Shown: in pieces, positions 20,920-31,645 of the stretch
How positions within the stretch are numbered: the stretch's first letter is position 1
Layout of the letters: every line of letters begins with the position of its first letter
DNA from: a virus
Length of the DNA stretch: 38,642 nucleotides
Strand: one strand, 5' to 3'
IMG/VR virus record: IMGVR_UViG_3300027730_000063
Coordinates: 1-38,642 of that record
Translations under genes and position numbers: made by a program
The notes under the pieces: generated by a model
What the model saw: only the letters and a program-made list of their open reading frames with translations
Database searches by the model: none
Told to the model about the DNA's origin: nothing

Positions 20920-23415
20920 ATGGATTATACAGACTTTATTAAGCAGAAAATCAAAATGGCGCATTTTGGTGGATTTGATGTTGAAAAGGACGAATTAAAT
21001 CCTATTCTTAAACCTCATCAAAAAGACATTGTGCAATGGGCAATACAAGGTGGAAACCGCGCAATCTTTGCAAGTTTTGGCCTTGGCAAATCGGTAATGC
21101 AGATCGAATGGATGGGGCAAACTATCCGTTTAGCAGGTGGTAAAGGCTTGATTATTGCACCGCTTGGAGTACGACAAGAGTTGATGCGTGATGCTTGTAT
21201 GTTGGGTTATGAACTGCGTTTTATCAGGCTAGAATCTGAGATTACTGATGACCATCATTTGTATATTACAAACTACGAAACCGTGCGAGACGGTAAGTTG
21301 CCTACTAGCTGTTTTACCGCAATTAGTCTTGATGAAGCGAGCGTGTTGCGTAGTTACGGTAGCAAGACATATCAAGAGTTTTTACCCATGTTTGCCGGTA
21401 TTAAATACAAACTGGTAAACACTGCTACGCCATCGCCGAATCGTTTTAAAGAGCTTATCCACTACGCTGGGTTTTTAGGTGCAATGGACACCGGCCAAGC
21501 CTTAACGCGCTTTTTCCAGCGCGATAGTACCCAAGCTAACAACTTGACGCTGTACCCGCATAAAGAACAAGAGTTTTGGTTATGGGTGTCTAGCTGGGCT
21601 ATTTTTGCGCAAAAACCATCGGATTTAGGCCATAGTGATGAAGGCTACGACTTGCCAGAGATTGAGGTTAACTACCATGAAATAGAAAGCGACTACGACA
21701 AAGCAGGGTTTGAACCTAACGGGCAAAATCTATTATTTCACAATCCCGCGCTTGGTTTATCAGCAGCATGCCGCGAAAAGCGCGATAGCTTAGTTGATCG
21801 AGTGCAAAAAGTTAAAGAGATTATTGATGCTGCGCCTGATGATCATTTTGTGATATGGCACGATTTAGAAGCCGAGCGACAAGCTATACAAAAAGCCATA
21901 CCTGATGCCATTAGCGTATGGGGAACTCAAGACCTAGACCAGCGTGAGGAGCGCATTGTAGGCTTTGGTGATGGTACTTTTCGCATACTTTCAACCAAAC
22001 CGATTATTGCCGGCTCAGGTTGTAACTTTCAGAAACATTGCCACCGTGAAATCTTTGCAGGTATTGGCTTTAAGTTTAATGACTTTATACAAGCCATTCA
22101 TCGGGTACAACGTTTTGGACAAACCAAAAAGGTAATTATTGACGTGATTCATAGCGAAGCAGAACGCGAAGTTTTGCGAGTTCTTTTGGAAAAATGGCAA
22201 CAACATAAAAAACTGGTAAATAACATGCAAGAAATTATCAAACAATTCGGCCTTAATCAATTGGCCATGAAAGACAAGTTAACACGTAGCATTGGTTTAA
22301 AACGTATTGCTGTAACAAGTGACCGTTTTTGTGTAGCAAACAATGATTGCGTAGAAGAAGCCAAAGTACGTGAAACCGATAGCGTTGGCTTAATTGTTAC
22401 AAGCATTCCGTTTGCTAATCATTACGAATACAGCCCAAGTTATAACGACTTTGGCCACACTGAAAGCAATGATCAATTCTGGGGTCAAATGGATTACTTA
22501 ACCCCCGAACTGTTGCGCATGTTGCAGCCTGGTCGCATTTACGCTTGCCACGTTAAAGATCGAATCTTATTCGGAAACGTTACCGGAGCTGGTGCACCAA
22601 CGGTAAGTCCGTTTCATTGCGAAACCATTATGCACGGCATTAAGCATGGGTTTGATTACATGGGTTTGATTACAGTTATCACCGATGTAGTGCGCGAAAA
22701 CAATCAAACCTATCGTTTAGGATGGTCTGAAAATGCCAAAGACGGAACTAAGATGGGTGTTGGTTCACCTGAATATATTGTGTTATTTCGTAAACCTCAA
22801 ACCGACCGTTCTAAAGGTTATGCTGATGTACCTGTTGCAAAGTCAAAGGATAAATACACCCGCGCCCATTGGCAAGTTGACGCGCATTCATTTTGGCGTA
22901 GTAGTGGCAATCGTCAATTGACCGCTGAAGACTTAGCAGGCCTTGGCCCAGATAAATTAGCCAGCATGTTTACTAAATTTTCTTTGCAAAATATTTACGA
23001 TTACGAATTCCACGTAAAACTAGGTATGGAATTAGCAGAACGCGGCGCATTGCCATCTACGTTTATGAGCCTTGCACCCGGTAGCCACCATCCTGACGTT
23101 TGGCATGATGTTGTGCGCATGATTACGCTAAACAGTGACCAAAGCAAACGCGCTGTCGAAAAGCACGTATGCCCGCTACAGTTTGACATTGTAGACCGAT
23201 TGATTGATAGATATAGCAACCTTAACGAATTGGTGTATGACCCGTTCTGTGGCCTTGGAACTGTACCTTATCGCGCTATTTTGAAAGGCCGTACAGGTGG
23301 AGGTTCTGAGTTAAATCCAGCCTACTTTACAGATCAAGTGCACTATTTAAGAGCTGCGGAAAAAGAGTTTTCTATGCCCTCTCTTTTTGATGCTTTGGAA
23401 GAAGAAACAATTTAA
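20920..23415 (+). CDS. SNF2-type helicase fused to N4/N6-type DNA methyltransferase
   Basis: 831 residues. Helicase part: PHQKDIVQWAIQGG (about 32-45), Walker A variant FGLGKS (53-58), DEAH-box position LDEAS (137-141), TATPSPN (168-174) and motif VI QAIHRVQRFGQ (391-401), the SNF2 pattern. From about 465, the methyltransferase part has motif IV first, TSIPFA (494-499; the usual form is (D/N/S)PP(Y/F)), and motif I last, DPFCGLGT (774-781), then GGGSELNPAYF (793-803), a permuted amino-methyltransferase. Ile replaces the first Pro of SPPY. The single chain could move along DNA and methylate it. It may protect phage DNA or compete with host restriction. Target base and site cannot be read from sequence. 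Confidence 0.85.
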   Translation: MDYTDFIKQKIKMAHFGGFDVEKDELNPILKPHQKDIVQWAIQGGNRAIFASFGLGKSVMQIEWMGQTIRLAGGKGLIIAPLGVRQELMRDACMLGYELRFIRLESEITDDHHLYITNYETVRDGKLPTSCFTAISLDEASVLRSYGSKTYQEFLPMFAGIKYKLVNTATPSPNRFKELIHYAGFLGAMDTGQALTRFFQRDSTQANNLTLYPHKEQEFWLWVSSWAIFAQKPSDLGHSDEGYDLPEIEVNYHEIESDYDKAGFEPNGQNLLFHNPALGLSAACREKRDSLVDRVQKVKEIIDAAPDDHFVIWHDLEAERQAIQKAIPDAISVWGTQDLDQREERIVGFGDGTFRILSTKPIIAGSGCNFQKHCHREIFAGIGFKFNDFIQAIHRVQRFGQTKKVIIDVIHSEAEREVLRVLLEKWQQHKKLVNNMQEIIKQFGLNQLAMKDKLTRSIGLKRIAVTSDRFCVANNDCVEEAKVRETDSVGLIVTSIPFANHYEYSPSYNDFGHTESNDQFWGQMDYLTPELLRMLQPGRIYACHVKDRILFGNVTGAGAPTVSPFHCETIMHGIKHGFDYMGLITVITDVVRENNQTYRLGWSENAKDGTKMGVGSPEYIVLFRKPQTDRSKGYADVPVAKSKDKYTRAHWQVDAHSFWRSSGNRQLTAEDLAGLGPDKLASMFTKFSLQNIYDYEFHVKLGMELAERGALPSTFMSLAPGSHHPDVWHDVVRMITLNSDQSKRAVEKHVCPLQFDIVDRLIDRYSNLNELVYDPFCGLGTVPYRAILKGRTGGGSELNPAYFTDQVHYLRAAEKEFSMPSLFDALEEETI

Positions 23416-24405: not shown

Positions 24406-24503
24406 TTATTTTATATCGTCTTTATCGCATGTATCGTAAATTTGGCTGTGACCGCCGCACTGCTTTACGCCGTGCCATTAAACAAGTTAAATATCATGCT
24501 TAG
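24402..24503 (+). CDS. 33-residue basic micro-protein
   Basis: The ATG overlaps the nuclease stop in ATGA, and the TAG overlaps the next gene's start (ATGCTTAG). The product is Arg/Lys/Tyr-rich: YRLYRMYRKFGCDRRTALRRA. It has no transmembrane segment. It may act mainly by carrying ribosomes to the next start, which lacks its own ribosome site. Similar tiny basic ORFs occur beside phage methylase-like genes. Confidence 0.6.
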   Translation: MIILYRLYRMYRKFGCDRRTALRRAIKQVKYHA

Positions 24504-25083
24504 AGTACTTGTTGCATGTGAATATAGCGGCAGGGTTCGTGACGCATTTGCAAAGATTGGTCATTTTGCAATGAGTTGCGATCTTTTGCCTACCGATGCG
24601 CCTGGTAATCATTATCAAGGTGATGTGTTTGACATCATAAATGATGGATGGGATTTAATGATTGCTCACCCACCTTGTACAGATTTAGCGGTTAGCGGTG
24701 CAGCATGGTTTAAAAAAAAGATTGCAAACGGCAGACAACAACGGGCGTTAGATTTTGTACAGAAACTTATGGATGCACCTATTAAACACATCGCAATTGA
24801 AAATCCAATCAGTGTCATTAGCTCAAAGATTCGCAAACCTGATCAAATTATTCAACCTTGGATGTTTGGTCACATGGAACAAAAAGCAACTTGCCTTTGG
24901 CTTGATGGACTTCCTTTGTTACAACCAACAAACATTGTCAAAGATGAAATGATGCAATTGCCAAAGAAAGAGAGAGAACGGTTGCATTACTTACCACCTA
25001 GTGCCAACCGTTGGAAACTACGTAGCACTACCTATCAAGGAATCGCCGATGCTATGGCTAATCAATGGGGTGCTGTATGTTAA
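24496..25083 (+). CDS. Dcm-fold-like phage protein with HPPC motif
   Basis: 195 residues from the ATG at 24496. VACEYSGRVRDAF (7-19) resembles motif I of cytosine-5 methyltransferases, CDLLP (28-32) the acidic strand, LMIAHPPCTDLAVSG (54-68) the catalytic PC loop, and IENP (101-104) motif VI ENV. The C-terminal target-recognition part is short and ends with a region WFGH-like (MFGHMEQKATCLWL). The family is widespread in phages and often annotated as DNA methylase, without proven activity. It is shorter than active Dcm-type enzymes. Translation probably depends on the upstream micro-gene. Confidence 0.75.
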   Translation: MLRVLVACEYSGRVRDAFAKIGHFAMSCDLLPTDAPGNHYQGDVFDIINDGWDLMIAHPPCTDLAVSGAAWFKKKIANGRQQRALDFVQKLMDAPIKHIAIENPISVISSKIRKPDQIIQPWMFGHMEQKATCLWLDGLPLLQPTNIVKDEMMQLPKKERERLHYLPPSANRWKLRSTTYQGIADAMANQWGAVC

Positions 25084-26663
25084 GAGAATACCAACAACGT
25101 GCTATTGACCAGCTATACGCATGGTTTGCAGCGGGTAACGATGGCAACCCATGTCTAGTACTGCCCACTGGTGCCGGTAAGAGCCACATTGTCGCCGCAT
25201 TGTGCAAGGGTATCTTGCAAGAGTATCCAGACCAGCGCATTTTGATGTTAACGCATGTGAAAGAGCTGATACAGCAAAATGCTGAAAAGATGCGCCAACA
25301 TTGGCCTAACGCACCGATGGGCATTTATAGCTCTGGCCTGCGCTGTAAAGAGTTGGGCGAACCAATAACCTTTGCCGGCATACAGTCTGTTGCTAAACGC
25401 GCATCTGAAATAGGCCATGTGGACATTGTAATCATTGACGAATGCCATCTTGTTAGCCATAAAGACGAAGGCGGGTATAGGATGCTTTTAACGGCCTTGC
25501 AAGCCATTAACCCAGCATTGCGGGTAGTTGGCTTAACTGCCACGCCGTACCGCTTAGGCCACGGTTTAATCACTGATGCGCCAGCATTGTTTAGCGCATT
25601 AATTGAGCCGGTAAGCATAGAGGAATTAATCTTTAAAGGCTATTTGTCCAAACTGCGAAGCAAGATAACAAAAACCAAACTATCAACTGAGGGTGTGCAT
25701 AAGAGAGGCGGTGAATACATCGAATCAGAGTTGCAAGCTGCCGTCGATACAAACGACAAGAATCAATCTATTGTTAGCGAAGTAATCCGGCTTGCCGGTG
25801 ATTGTAAATCATGGTTGTTTTTCTGCTCTGGTGTTGACCATGCGCGACATGTGCAAGAGGTTTTAAACGCTCATGGCATTACATCGGCATGTGTAGTTGG
25901 AGATACGCCAGACGCCGAACGTGCACGAATCCTTGCAGATTTTAAGGCAGGTAAGATTAAAGCCTTGACTAATGCCAATGTACTTACTACCGGATTTGAC
26001 CATCCTAGCATTGACCTGATTGCTATGATGCGCCCCACAATGTCTCCAGGTCTATACGTGCAAATGGCAGGCCGAGGTTTACGCATTGCAGACGGTAAAA
26101 CAGATTGCATGGTACTAGACTTTGCCGGTGTTGTTGACCAGCATGGCCCAATTACAGCCGTCAAGCCTCCGCCAAAGAAAGGAGACAAGATAGGCGAGGC
26201 GCCAGTTAAAGTATGCGAACAGTGTCAAGAAATAGTTCATATTAGCTGTAAGATATGCCCCGCATGTGGCGCGGAATTCCCAGAGATTGAAAAGCCAGCA
26301 TTAAAACTGCATAACTTGGACATCATGGGAATAGAAGGTGTTGATCTTGACGTTACAGCCTGGCAATGGCGCAAGCATATCAGCCGTGCAAGCGGTAAAG
26401 AGATGTTGGCTTTAACCTATTACGGCGCATTGTCTGATACGCCTGTAACAGAGTATCTAACGGTTATGCACGATGGTTACGCCGGTGAAAAGGCAAGGCG
26501 CTTGCTAGCTGTGTTAGCAGATCAATCCGGCGCTACGCTTGATTACTCAATAGCTGACATTCAGCAACATGCCAATGTTTTAAACCTAGCCAAAGCCCCC
26601 GCCGCTATTGAATATAAAAGCGAAGGTAAATTTTTTACAGTAATGAAAAGGACTTTTCAATGA
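25077..26663 (+). CDS. DEAD/DEAH-box helicase with zinc ribbon
   Basis: 528 residues from the ATG at 25077. REYQQRAIDQL (Q-motif region), Walker A LPTGAGKS (29-36), VIIDECHLVSH (118-128), GLTATPYR (152-159), VLTTGFDHPSID (302-313) and QMAGRGLRIADGK (329-341) are the superfamily 2 motifs. C-terminal to these, CEQC ... CKICPAC (380-397) forms a zinc ribbon, followed by a beta-rich tail of about 120 residues. It may unwind recombination intermediates or act in replication initiation. The start overlaps the preceding stop (ATGTTAA). Confidence 0.9.
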   Translation: MLREYQQRAIDQLYAWFAAGNDGNPCLVLPTGAGKSHIVAALCKGILQEYPDQRILMLTHVKELIQQNAEKMRQHWPNAPMGIYSSGLRCKELGEPITFAGIQSVAKRASEIGHVDIVIIDECHLVSHKDEGGYRMLLTALQAINPALRVVGLTATPYRLGHGLITDAPALFSALIEPVSIEELIFKGYLSKLRSKITKTKLSTEGVHKRGGEYIESELQAAVDTNDKNQSIVSEVIRLAGDCKSWLFFCSGVDHARHVQEVLNAHGITSACVVGDTPDAERARILADFKAGKIKALTNANVLTTGFDHPSIDLIAMMRPTMSPGLYVQMAGRGLRIADGKTDCMVLDFAGVVDQHGPITAVKPPPKKGDKIGEAPVKVCEQCQEIVHISCKICPACGAEFPEIEKPALKLHNLDIMGIEGVDLDVTAWQWRKHISRASGKEMLALTYYGALSDTPVTEYLTVMHDGYAGEKARRLLAVLADQSGATLDYSIADIQQHANVLNLAKAPAAIEYKSEGKFFTVMKRTFQ

Positions 26664-28775: not shown

Positions 28776-29240
28776 TTACGCAATTAACCCAGTAAGATAG
28801 ATAGTCTTACCATCTTTCTTGATAGCGGTTAAAGCCTGATTTTTTAGGCTTTTAGGGTCATACGACACATGCACCCAGCCGCTATGTGGGTTTCCCATTG
28901 TGTAAAATTCTAAAATGACTTGAGTAAATTTGAGATTGTTTAAAATCCAATTAGCTAGGTCATAATTAGAAATCCCTGGCACTTCAATATCTGCCGCAAA
29001 GCCTTGCATATGATCCGAAGTTTTAGAGCCACCAACGGCTTTATTAACTGCAGGACTACGATAACCACTGCTAATCTTTACCGGCTTTTCGTAGTTTTTA
29101 CGTATTGGTTGCAATACGTTTTCTACTAAATCACGCAAATTCTGCAGTACACCTTGTGTGGGTGTATTGTCTAAATTGTTTCTTAATGCCGAATCGCTTT
29201 TAATTAATTCAAGCAATGTAAAATTTTCGCTAAGTTTCAT
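28776..29240 (-). CDS. Endolysin, M15 family peptidase
   Basis: 154 residues. MKLSENFTLLELIKSDSA, then SSGYRSPAVNKAVGGS and DHMQGFAADIE (His about 77, Asp about 84) and GWVHVSYD (His about 124) provide the zinc ligands and fold of the M15_3 D-Ala-D-Ala peptidases that serve as phage endolysins, cutting peptide links in peptidoglycan. No signal peptide, so it needs the holin next door. Start in ATGA overlap with the holin. Confidence 0.9.
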   Translation of the reverse strand: MKLSENFTLLELIKSDSALRNNLDNTPTQGVLQNLRDLVENVLQPIRKNYEKPVKISSGYRSPAVNKAVGGSKTSDHMQGFAADIEVPGISNYDLANWILNNLKFTQVILEFYTMGNPHSGWVHVSYDPKSLKNQALTAIKKDGKTIYLTGLIA

Positions 29241-29647
29241 TTTTTAGTTCTCATATCGGCCAATTTTTCTACAGTTCTACCGCCAAAGTAAGCTAAGAAT
29301 ATGATTTGCCCCCATTGGCCTAACAACTGCACATATGATTCTTGCGCGTTGTAACCGTATGCAGACATAAAGGTAAACAGAAAATAGGCCACAAAGATGG
29401 CTATAAGAGCCATAGGACGGATATTTTTAGATAGCCAGCTATCGCTAGACATATCAGCCTTCCAACGGTCTGATATGGCTGTATGCTCAATCTCAAATAG
29501 TTTGGTATCGTTAGCCATCTTTGCTAACTCGCCATCGTTTGCCATTACAGCAAGCTCCATTTGCGCTTTAGCTTTGGCCGCAGGATCAGGGATTAACTTA
29601 TCAATAAGTTTTCCGCCAACTGTTAAAAGTGCATCTAAACCAAACAT
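29237..29647 (-). CDS. Holin (3TM holin family)
   Basis: 136 residues. A helical cytosolic front (DPAAKAKAQMELAVMANDGELAKM, in part AKAKAQMELAVM) precedes two clear membrane spans, about 79-98 (MALIAIFVAYFLFTFMSAYG) and 106-122 (VQLLGQWGQIIFLAYFG). This fits the GTA/3TM-type holin family. It makes the membrane lesion that releases the endolysin. GAAAGGAT lies before the ATG. Confidence 0.85.
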   Translation of the reverse strand: MFGLDALLTVGGKLIDKLIPDPAAKAKAQMELAVMANDGELAKMANDTKLFEIEHTAISDRWKADMSSDSWLSKNIRPMALIAIFVAYFLFTFMSAYGYNAQESYVQLLGQWGQIIFLAYFGGRTVEKLADMRTKK

Positions 29648-29657
29648 ATCAATCCTT

Positions 29658-30416
29658 TCAAGGCGAAGCCTTTAAATTGTAAAGTCGTAATGTGTCTAAT
29701 ACCTCGCCGCGCAATTGCATGCGCCGCAATGCATCTACCATGCGCCCGTATAAGTCCTTATACTTGCTTTTTTTGCTTACTCCGAATCCGTAGGTAATCT
29801 GCTTGATCTCGCCGGCTTCTTTTGGGCCAATGATTGAATGCTTCTTTAACAACGCAGCGCCCACTTCGCGATTGACAATCACCGCTCCATTAGCGCCATA
29901 CTTGCCAGTAATGAGGTGTTGATAACTGGAAACAATGCTAGGTTCAATGATTAAATTAAATCCATCAAAACCCATAGCAATACGCTTTGCTGCTACTTCT
30001 TCCGCTACGATAGATGTACCGCTTGGGCCATAAGCCCCCACAGTCATGCCGGTAAGCGTAGATACGCCGCCATACTTCCACGGATTGCGCGAGGTTACAA
30101 AGAAGCTATAGCTGGTATTGACAATGCTTGGAGACAAGTAAAACAGCTCCGCACGTTCAGGCACTTCCAGCAGAATAGAAAAAACCACATCAGCATCTCC
30201 GTCTACCGCCTGTTTGTAAGTGTCTTTCCACGCCTGCAAGTCAAACGTGCATTGCAGTTTTGCTTCCCTGCATATTGACTTCATAATGGTGTACATCGGG
30301 CCTTGTATCACGCCATTGTGCAAAGTCTGGAACGGAGGAAAGTCCTCTGTAACAATGCGCACAGTTTGCCCGTATGCTGGTAATACAAATAGTAAAGGTA
30401 ATAGGTACTTAATCAT
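29658..30416 (-). CDS. Exported family-3 solute-binding protein
   Basis: 252 residues from the ATG at 30416, GAGG upstream. A signal peptide (MIKYLLPLLFVLPAYGQT, cut probably after G16 or nearby) is followed by RIVTEDFPPFQTLHNGVIQGPMY (in part TEDFPPFQ), DLQAWKDTYKQAVDGDADVVFS, RAELFYLSPSIVNTSYSFFV and GMTVGAYGPSG, the canonical segments of bacterial SBP_bac_3 proteins. No lipobox Cys and no transglycosylase domain. It overlaps the gene before by 8 bp. Such a protein is unusual in a phage lysis cassette; a host-derived acquisition is likely. Possible roles: ligand scavenging, sensing, or lysis control. Confidence 0.85.
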   Translation of the reverse strand: MIKYLLPLLFVLPAYGQTVRIVTEDFPPFQTLHNGVIQGPMYTIMKSICREAKLQCTFDLQAWKDTYKQAVDGDADVVFSILLEVPERAELFYLSPSIVNTSYSFFVTSRNPWKYGGVSTLTGMTVGAYGPSGTSIVAEEVAAKRIAMGFDGFNLIIEPSIVSSYQHLITGKYGANGAVIVNREVGAALLKKHSIIGPKEAGEIKQITYGFGVSKKSKYKDLYGRMVDALRRMQLRGEVLDTLRLYNLKASP

Positions 30417-30849
30417 GCTCTGGAACCTCAAAACACAAGTCTGGTAACTTTGCACTATGCTGCTTTAAAGATAGCATAGGACGCCAATAAACGACCGCCT
30501 TGCTGCACCATGCGCCGCTCATGTGAGGTGGTAGTATGCTAGATCGCAATACAACATAATCCCCTAATTGATTGACTACAACGCCGCCCTCAATGGCTAC
30601 GCTATGATCCCCGTTGGCTTGTCGATGCAATGATCTATAAATGGTTAATTCTGATATATCACTGCCATTAAAACCTCGGCTTTCAACCAATAGATTATTG
30701 CCATCTTTTTGCGTAATCATAGTTACACTGTCCGAGGTGGAAAAAGGTGGTTTAGCGTCAAAGGTAATATAAATAATTCCGCCAAAAAATAACGTGCATA
30801 TAAAACTAAACCAACCTCCAACGCGAATAATAAGTTGAGAGTGGTTCAT
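30409..30849 (-). CDS. Membrane-anchored periplasmic protein, unknown
   Basis: 146 residues. One N-terminal span (about 12-28, WFSFICTLFFGGIIYIT) and a beta-rich C-terminal domain with two Cys (AWCSKAV, LCFEV) that could form a disulphide in the periplasm. Not a coiled coil, so not a usual i-spanin. Start overlaps the stop of the next upstream gene (ATGA). It is within the lysis region and is coupled to the solute-binding protein gene. Confidence 0.65.
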   Translation of the reverse strand: MNHSQLIIRVGGWFSFICTLFFGGIIYITFDAKPPFSTSDSVTMITQKDGNNLLVESRGFNGSDISELTIYRSLHRQANGDHSVAIEGGVVVNQLGDYVVLRSSILPPHMSGAWCSKAVVYWRPMLSLKQHSAKLPDLCFEVPEHD

Positions 30850-31229
30850 TTTTTAACCTCTGCGGTACTTGGTGCATCAAATACTAATTCTTTTAACTTC
30901 AATTGACTGCCTAATGCGAAAACGCCAGCCATAACGATAATAGCTGCCGTCAGTGCTTTTTTTAAGATGTCATCCCAAAAACCACGCCAGAACTTTTTAC
31001 GTGCTTCAATCACATCTTCTCTCTTGGATAAAATTTGATGTATATCATGATGCTCTTTGATATTACCATCTGGCATTGACTTGATCAAAGTTTCATGCAA
31101 TACATCTACCTTTTCAGATAACTTATCAATTTTATTTGATTGTTCTGTTAATGCAGTGCGTACCCATAGACTAGCAGCGCGGTTTTCACCACGCCTGTCT
31201 AATTCAGATGGTAAATTTGTATCATCCAT
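30846..31229 (-). CDS. Tail-anchored coiled-coil membrane protein
   Basis: 127 residues. ALTEQSNKIDKLSEKVDVLHETLIK (in part) forms a coiled coil (about 25-52), a His/Glu-rich middle follows, then a membrane span at about 92-108 (LTAAIIVMAGVFALG). The layout recalls XhlA-like or accessory holin proteins, but the family is not certain. Weak ribosome site. Confidence 0.65.
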   Translation of the reverse strand: MDDTNLPSELDRRGENRAASLWVRTALTEQSNKIDKLSEKVDVLHETLIKSMPDGNIKEHHDIHQILSKREDVIEARKKFWRGFWDDILKKALTAAIIVMAGVFALGSQLKLKELVFDAPSTAEVKK

Positions 31230-31234
31230 AAAAC

Positions 31235-31645
31235 TTATCTGTAGTTATAGCCAAATAATAATTTAGAAAAAATAACAAAACGTGACATTTTTTTACCATG
31301 CACATGTGCAGTTTTATTAAAAAAATAATCTGCATTCATTTTGTTTTTAGTCCAGTTATCAAACCAATTGCCATGATAACAAGCTACGCAATGATTGATA
31401 GCGTTAGAGCCATTAGATTTTACGCCATGAAGCTCATATTCGCCAGTGATAAGAACACGCCAAAGAAAATGCAACAAACTTTTTTCAGACATAAGCCAAA
31501 ACACGGTTAATGCAAAGTCCTCACAGTCTCCGTACATTTTGCCATCTTGCTCACGCATAACAAACCAAACATCGGTTAACAATGCTTTGTCTAATTGGTA
31601 AACAAAACGATCTGAGACATGCTCTAAAGCATCATCCAGCATCAT
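31235..31645 (-). CDS. Transglutaminase-like cysteine peptidase (BTLCP/C93-type)
   Basis: 136 residues. YGDCEDFALTVFWLM (Cys about 41) and NHCVACYHGNWFDNW (His about 85, Asp about 96) are the Cys-His-Asp triad in the C93-like pattern GDCEDxAL ... HxVxxY...DN. There is no signal peptide. Phage relatives occur but their targets are unknown; a peptide-bond or isopeptide role in the virion or cell wall is possible. ATGA overlap with the previous gene; a second ATG one codon in. Confidence 0.75.
   Translation of the reverse strand: MMLDDALEHVSDRFVYQLDKALLTDVWFVMREQDGKMYGDCEDFALTVFWLMSEKSLLHFLWRVLITGEYELHGVKSNGSNAINHCVACYHGNWFDNWTKNKMNADYFFNKTAHVHGKKMSRFVIFSKLLFGYNYR

Follow-up and report, generated by a model that had tools for sequence, protein, structure and literature searches.

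Phage lysis decisions known to answer outside signals are few, the classic example being the lysis inhibition of phage T4 by superinfection. In T4, RI regulates lysis from the periplasm as a soluble protein whose signal peptide is processed, and has a cytoplasmic partner in RIII (PMC8385771), and in MltF of Pseudomonas aeruginosa a regulatory domain is joined to a murein enzyme (PMC10746161). Periplasmic antiholins are already known, as are phage-borne solute-binding proteins (SBPs), such as cyanophage PstS and the HisJ of phage Cygsa01. An SBP within a lysis cassette, or one with obligate membrane partners beside a holin, is a combination for which we found no description in open-licence papers. 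Here we describe a three-gene unit, present across unrelated phages, in which an exported SBP is encoded together with two membrane proteins, TM1 and TM2, next to the lysis genes.

The window, a stretch of 38,642 nucleotides from an IMG/VR virus record, carries P22-like genes (phrog_156 portal, phrog_283 major head protein, DNA ejection, and Hc3 head-closure) and encodes a Sak4-like protein. A tyrosine integrase was not found in it; the phage is probably lytic and its record possibly incomplete. Elsewhere in the window, after an 831-aa ORF (20920–23415, plus strand) with helicase and DNA methyltransferase profile matches come, at 24442–26663 on the plus strand, a Cas4-type exonuclease, a methyltransferase, and another helicase ORF.

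The SBP gene (29658–30416, minus strand) runs from an ATG at its 30416 end to a stop codon at 29658–29660 and encodes a periplasmic family-3 SBP of 252 aa. A Shine-Dalgarno-like GAGG (30426–30429, minus strand) lies 9 nt upstream of the start, within the TM1 gene. The product matches the Pfam profile SBP_bac_3 (PF00497) with 44.1 bits (E=2.1e-11), well above the cut-off of 26.4 bits, and the same match was obtained for 12 of the 12 phage homologues in alignment A1. Its first 16 residues (MIKYLLPLLFVLPAYG, followed by Q; 30369–30416, minus strand) form a predicted signal peptide of the SPase I type, and the A-x-A/G cleavage site before Q is retained in most relatives in the alignment. There is no lipobox in this signal peptide, as is normal for periplasmic SBPs when the host is Gram-negative, and hence not odd in itself. 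Over the 252 residues, Pfam matched only SBP_bac_3, with no transglycosylase domain found, including the C-terminal lytic one of the MltF type. The original prediction of a full-length SBP_bac_3 protein with a signal peptide is thus upheld by length, profile score, and complete predicted fold; sequence and Pfam likewise agree with its claim that lipobox and transglycosylase domain are both missing.

Homologues of the SBP are present on 13 further contigs, with identities of 63–96%, comprising 12 IMG/VR contigs and a contig of an Oxalobacteraceae metagenome-assembled genome (MAG). Three IMG/VR scans with the SBP or its profiles agree on the 12 contigs (identities of 64–96%), these being seed-based searches from which distant relatives may escape. 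The MAG copy (73% identity) resides on a 63-kb contig with tail genes, a terminase, and an integrase, and this contig is the sole hint at a host. The phage SBPs form one clade (support 98/91), the nearest cellular relatives of which are stand-alone SBPs of Pseudomonadaceae with approximately 30% identity. Among the other carriers, the portal of the window phage recurs only in G003–G006, and integrases are carried by G007, which is circular by virtue of a 601-bp end repeat, by G010, and by the MAG contig. Given these unlike portals and the integrases of some carriers, the genes sit in several phage types, spanning lytic and temperate phages with unrelated portals. Internal stops are absent from every SBP copy examined, and dN/dS, about 0.04–0.14 in the comparisons that fall short of saturation, is 0.067 between the window and L001, 0.042 between L002 and L003, and 0.135 between L007 and L011. 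The SBP is under strong purifying selection. A chance ORF or host contamination was ruled out on the basis of the phage clade, the surrounding phage genes, and dN/dS. Collectively, the conserved clade, the cassette, and the selection favour a real, phage-adapted gene.

The model of the SBP is a complete two-lobe type-II SBP (pLDDT 92.6), which matches solved type-II SBPs with Z scores of 21.7–24.6, the top match extending over 224 residues. The top solved structure is 3h7m, an SBP-type histidine-kinase sensor domain (Z 24.6), with octopine, glutathione, glutamine, and LAO binding proteins close behind, transport SBPs thus lying within about 1–2 Z of it. In GlnBP and LAO, an Arg holds the alpha-carboxylate of the ligand, and an Asp together with a Thr or Ser holds its alpha-amino group. 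In the sequence alignment with 4zv1, R88 of the phage protein aligns with the carboxylate Arg, N182 with the Asp, and L83 with the Thr. R88 is invariant across 30 alignment rows and belongs to a set of residues that do not vary in the phage copies (E24, F26, W63, R88, the GPSGTS loop, and N182); the aromatic lid positions are kept, and a Cys pair, at what we take to be the position of the LAO disulfide, is conserved. The canonical alpha-amino contacts therefore appear, as far as the alignment can tell, to be replaced by L83 and N182. With R88 kept and these residues at the alpha-amino positions, the putative ligand may be a carboxylate-bearing compound, perhaps other than a plain alpha-amino acid.

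TM1 (30409–30849, minus strand) has an N-terminal transmembrane helix and a predicted periplasmic Ig-like beta-sandwich with invariant C115 and C139, and TM2 (30846–31229, minus strand) combines an N-terminal coiled-coil-like region with one C-terminal transmembrane segment. The end of TM1 overlaps the start of the SBP gene by 8 bp (30409–30416, minus strand), an overlap shared by most relatives and reduced to 4 bp in L012, and TM2 overlaps TM1 by 4 bp in nearly all carriers. The order TM2-TM1-SBP is constant in 13 of the 13 carriers whose sequence reaches upstream. When used as separate queries in IMG/VR scans, SBP, TM1, and TM2 retrieved the same contigs (12, 11, and 12, respectively): TM1 is missing from one SBP contig, L010, as the contig ends there, and one additional TM2 contig stops just past TM2. 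Within the MAG's family, 1 of 294 genomes contained TM1, located beside the SBP on the same contig. TM2, TM1, and SBP constitute an obligate, translationally coupled module. Beyond these contigs, tblastn with TM1 and SBP gave no match in INPHARED, and BFVD contains one TM1-like protein (60% identity) from an uncultured phage. TM1 returned nothing credible from the PDB; its model (pLDDT 79) reaches Z of about 11 with GH2 accessory domains, a likeness that is uninformative on function. TM2 weakly matches XhlA/hemolysin phrog_937 (E=0.007, 2 of 8 members), and its coiled coil would be cytoplasmic, judging from charge and hydropathy.

On the minus strand, the module stands in the order tail spike, two small genes, a GDCEDF-motif protein, TM2, TM1, SBP, holin, and endolysin. 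Successive genes in this series are spaced apart or overlap by anything from a few bases to about 20 bp, and given this tight spacing, the genes from tail spike to endolysin likely belong to one late operon. The holin gene (GTA_holin_3TM/phrog_3427; 29237–29647, minus strand; 36.1 bits vs a cut-off of 24.8) follows the SBP gene after 10 bp (29648–29657) and overlaps by 4 bp the endolysin gene (28776–29240, minus strand), assigned to Peptidase_M15_3/phrog_894 by profile matches. The SBP gene does lie, as had been proposed, between holin/endolysin and two membrane proteins, with an 8-bp overlap with its neighbour. The GDCEDFAL-motif protein (31235–31645, minus strand), which has no Pfam match, is a variable companion that precedes TM2 in the window, L001–L005, and L011, and by eye resembles transglutaminase or BTLCP-like proteins. 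A simple lipobox scan of the window's late region gave no credible candidate for an o-spanin lipoprotein. The absence of an accompanying permease held up as well: PF00528 was not detected in 13 carrier records, the window among them, several of which are fragmentary, and was positive in 14 of 14 control genomes. For the ATPase (PF00005), the carriers yielded only sub-threshold matches, that of the window being within the Sak4-like gene.

Across the carriers, the genes downstream of the module change, and a holin-class protein is found within about 2.2 kb wherever the sequence covers the region. Holin and then M15 endolysin follow the module in the window, L001–L005, L010, and L011, with a methylase-like gene and a small ORF intervening in L011. 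In L006/L157, L008, and L009, a GH108 endolysin is followed by a phrog_1544 holin-like protein; in L007, a hydrolase gene comes before this pair; and in L025, the GH108 endolysin is followed by a mosaic holin. In L012, the neighbours of the module include a tail protein along with a holin-like protein and a lipase, and an endolysin is not nearby. In L006/L157, L009, and L025, the SBP gene and the start of the GH108 endolysin gene share 4 bp, which makes co-translation with the lysis genes likely. The holin-class neighbour is of the phrog_1544 type in L006–L009 and L012, and of the phrog_3427 type elsewhere, except for the mosaic of L025 (7961–8482), the N-terminal part of which is phrog_1544-like and the C-terminal part phrog_3427-like (hhalign, 99.9% and 99.7%). 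This mosaic suggests that phrog_1544, a family with no annotated function, is a holin family. The endolysin class (M15, GH108, or none, in L012) requires 3 changes on the SBP tree. The holin class is the steady neighbour of the module, and the endolysin class varies. Thus, the proposed check for a phage clade that stays in lysis cassettes turned out positive: the 13 further contigs form one phage clade, the module stays upstream of a holin-class gene, and this position is kept although endolysins and portals change. Nor is the gene confined to a single genome or decayed in relatives, the signal peptide, Cys pair, and pocket positions being conserved. The lysis regions of relatives (L006, L007, L008, L009, L012, and L025) contain alpha/beta hydrolases or lipases, as well as patatin-like and secreted SNase-like proteins, the latter two kinds recognised by eye.

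Among 83 loci with the same holin family, the module is present in only 1 (L025). Being common without the module, the holin does not need it, and the module is optional. In other phages, the slot before the same holin is filled by many different genes. Some encode membrane-anchored proteins, e.g., a 203-aa protein of the phrog_31287 family (L067, 5393–6004) and a 151-aa protein with a TM-like segment and a beta domain (L094, 1229–1684), which are perhaps other lysis-input proteins. Profile comparison of TM1 with the Ig-like or 203-aa proteins of this slot did not support kinship.

The gene, its export signal, the predicted complete SBP fold, the obligate linkage, the overlaps, the holin-side position, and the purifying selection are established features of the module, from which we infer contact between SBP and TM1, ligand binding, and an effect on the holin. 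Possibly, the SBP is expressed late, senses a ligand in the periplasm, and influences holin timing by way of TM1 and TM2. Within this phage-specific late module, the SBP would be the soluble component that binds the ligand in the periplasm; TM1, a bitopic inner-membrane protein, would expose its Ig-like domain to the periplasm and read the ligand-driven opening and closing of the SBP; and TM2, with its coiled coil placed in the cytoplasm, would relay this signal to delay or trigger the holin encoded just downstream, such that lysis timing would follow a small-molecule signal in the periplasm. We favour this reading because it explains the export, the fixed partners, the coupling to lysis genes, the conserved pocket, and the steady holin neighbour, and of the three functions originally suggested, a ligand-sensing lysis timer fits best, its mechanism being our extrapolation. 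The precedents of T4 RI and MltF are analogies. The best structural match, 3h7m, is a sensor domain, albeit with transport SBPs nearly as close. Against the lysis sensor stand the frequency of the same holin family in phages devoid of the module, the L012 module with no endolysin nearby, the moderate confidence of the TM1 fold (pLDDT 79), the weak similarity of TM2 to XhlA, and the fact that the slot between tail fibre and lysis genes is a usual site of accessory genes. A more specific picture, that of a metabolite- or wall-fragment-gated lysis clock running from a secreted SBP-fold sensor through two membrane partners to the holin, on a cassette spread among freshwater phages, is possible but more doubtful.

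An alternative is late superinfection exclusion or envelope protection, in which TM1 and the SBP, situated at the face of the inner membrane and in the periplasm, would block the entry of a second phage's DNA or a host import protein used by phages. Membrane-associated exclusion proteins such as SieA of P22 are known, the module adjoins tail-fibre and lysis genes, a usual accessory site, and is common to different phages, and in G007 an integrase lies downstream of the lysis genes; however, coupling to endolysin and holin implies expression at a late stage, when exclusion helps little, a late-coupled module should be off in lysogens, and a plug would not require a well-conserved ligand pocket, all of which renders this function somewhat unlikely. 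The variety of genes that occupy the slot before the same holin, together with the spread of the module among different phages, could also indicate a passenger (moron) module with a lysis-unrelated function in a permissive late-gene slot, but this is unlikely for a unit whose order, overlaps, and holin-side position are constant in 14 carriers of several phage types.

Another candidate function is an MltF-like regulator of murein hydrolysis, whereby the SBP would sense peptidoglycan fragments and control a wall enzyme of host or phage, with TM1 as docking partner. The module lies beside endolysins of either class and shares bases with the start of the GH108 gene, and in MltF itself a regulatory domain at the N-terminus is coupled to one that cleaves murein (PMC10746161). 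Yet neither the SBP nor its partners have a transglycosylase domain, and the endolysin class changes, or is missing near L012, when a direct partner should be kept; we consider this quite unlikely. Nutrient scavenging, with the SBP as an auxiliary metabolic gene product that captures an amino acid or another carboxylate for delivery to an ABC permease of the host, is consistent with the PF00497 fold, with the retained carboxylate Arg R88 and aromatic lid positions, and with the existence of phage-borne SBPs such as cyanophage PstS. Nevertheless, no carrier record contains a permease or ATPase, the SBP is located in a late lysis operon, and docking to a host permease is doubtful at approximately 30% identity to the nearest cellular relative, itself stand-alone. 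Moreover, transport leaves the two obligate, non-transporter membrane partners unexplained, and L83 and N182 take the alignment positions of the alpha-amino Thr/Ser and Asp of GlnBP/LAO. The last two points, obligate TM1/TM2 and apparent loss of the alpha-amino signature, weaken the suggested role as an amino-acid scavenger for a permease of the host, which is improbable.

Whatever its function, the module comprises a phage-specific clade of SBPs that is undescribed and comes with obligate membrane partners, encountered here in metagenomic contigs only and absent from the cultured phage records searched by tblastn with SBP and TM1 (INPHARED). If the lysis-sensor reading is true, a portable, conserved SBP module beside the holin would be an instance, directly open to testing, of lysis time being set by a small molecule. 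Among other phage SBPs, most ArgT/HisJ matches in INPHARED look like host-derived stretches or short unannotated records, a query with a Bug-type SBP matched one unannotated record, and Phipami28, which encodes a whole ABC operon, was rejected as comparable. The HisJ-like SBP_bac_3 of Pseudomonas phage Cygsa01, encoded three genes downstream of the endolysin, shares the lysis-side location, but belongs to another SBP subfamily and lacks TM1/TM2; no relatives of it were found in the IMG/VR scan. In that phage (L162), the HisJ-like gene comes shortly after the endolysin and is followed by a DoeB-like deacetylase gene.

The stand-alone SBP_bac_3 proteins of Stutzerimonas and Pseudomonas (L026–L056) share with the phage SBP the VTEDFPPF motif, a C-x6-C pair, PW, the R of the PxR motif, YGPSGTS, and N-x-DV, as well as a gene cluster without a permease, but are cellular, only about 26–32% identical, and devoid of TM1/TM2; in two loci that we read, they are flanked by MutY and a BCCT-transporter gene. 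With LAO, HisJ, and GlnBP (1lst, 1wdn, and 4zv1), the phage SBP has in common the fold (Z about 22) and the carboxylate Arg, whereas the alpha-amino contacts are apparently replaced (L83 and N182) and there is no cognate permease. The sensor domain 3h7m likewise uses the SBP fold for sensing, but is covalently part of a kinase, whereas the phage SBP has separate transmembrane partners. Similarly, MltF places a PBP-like regulatory N-terminal domain over a murein enzyme, in contrast to the phage SBP, which has no SLT domain and is partnered by small membrane proteins. Compared with the RI/RIII antiholins of T4, finally, the phage SBP shows no sequence link; RI differs in fold, has the holin T as its target, and is believed to recognise phage DNA.
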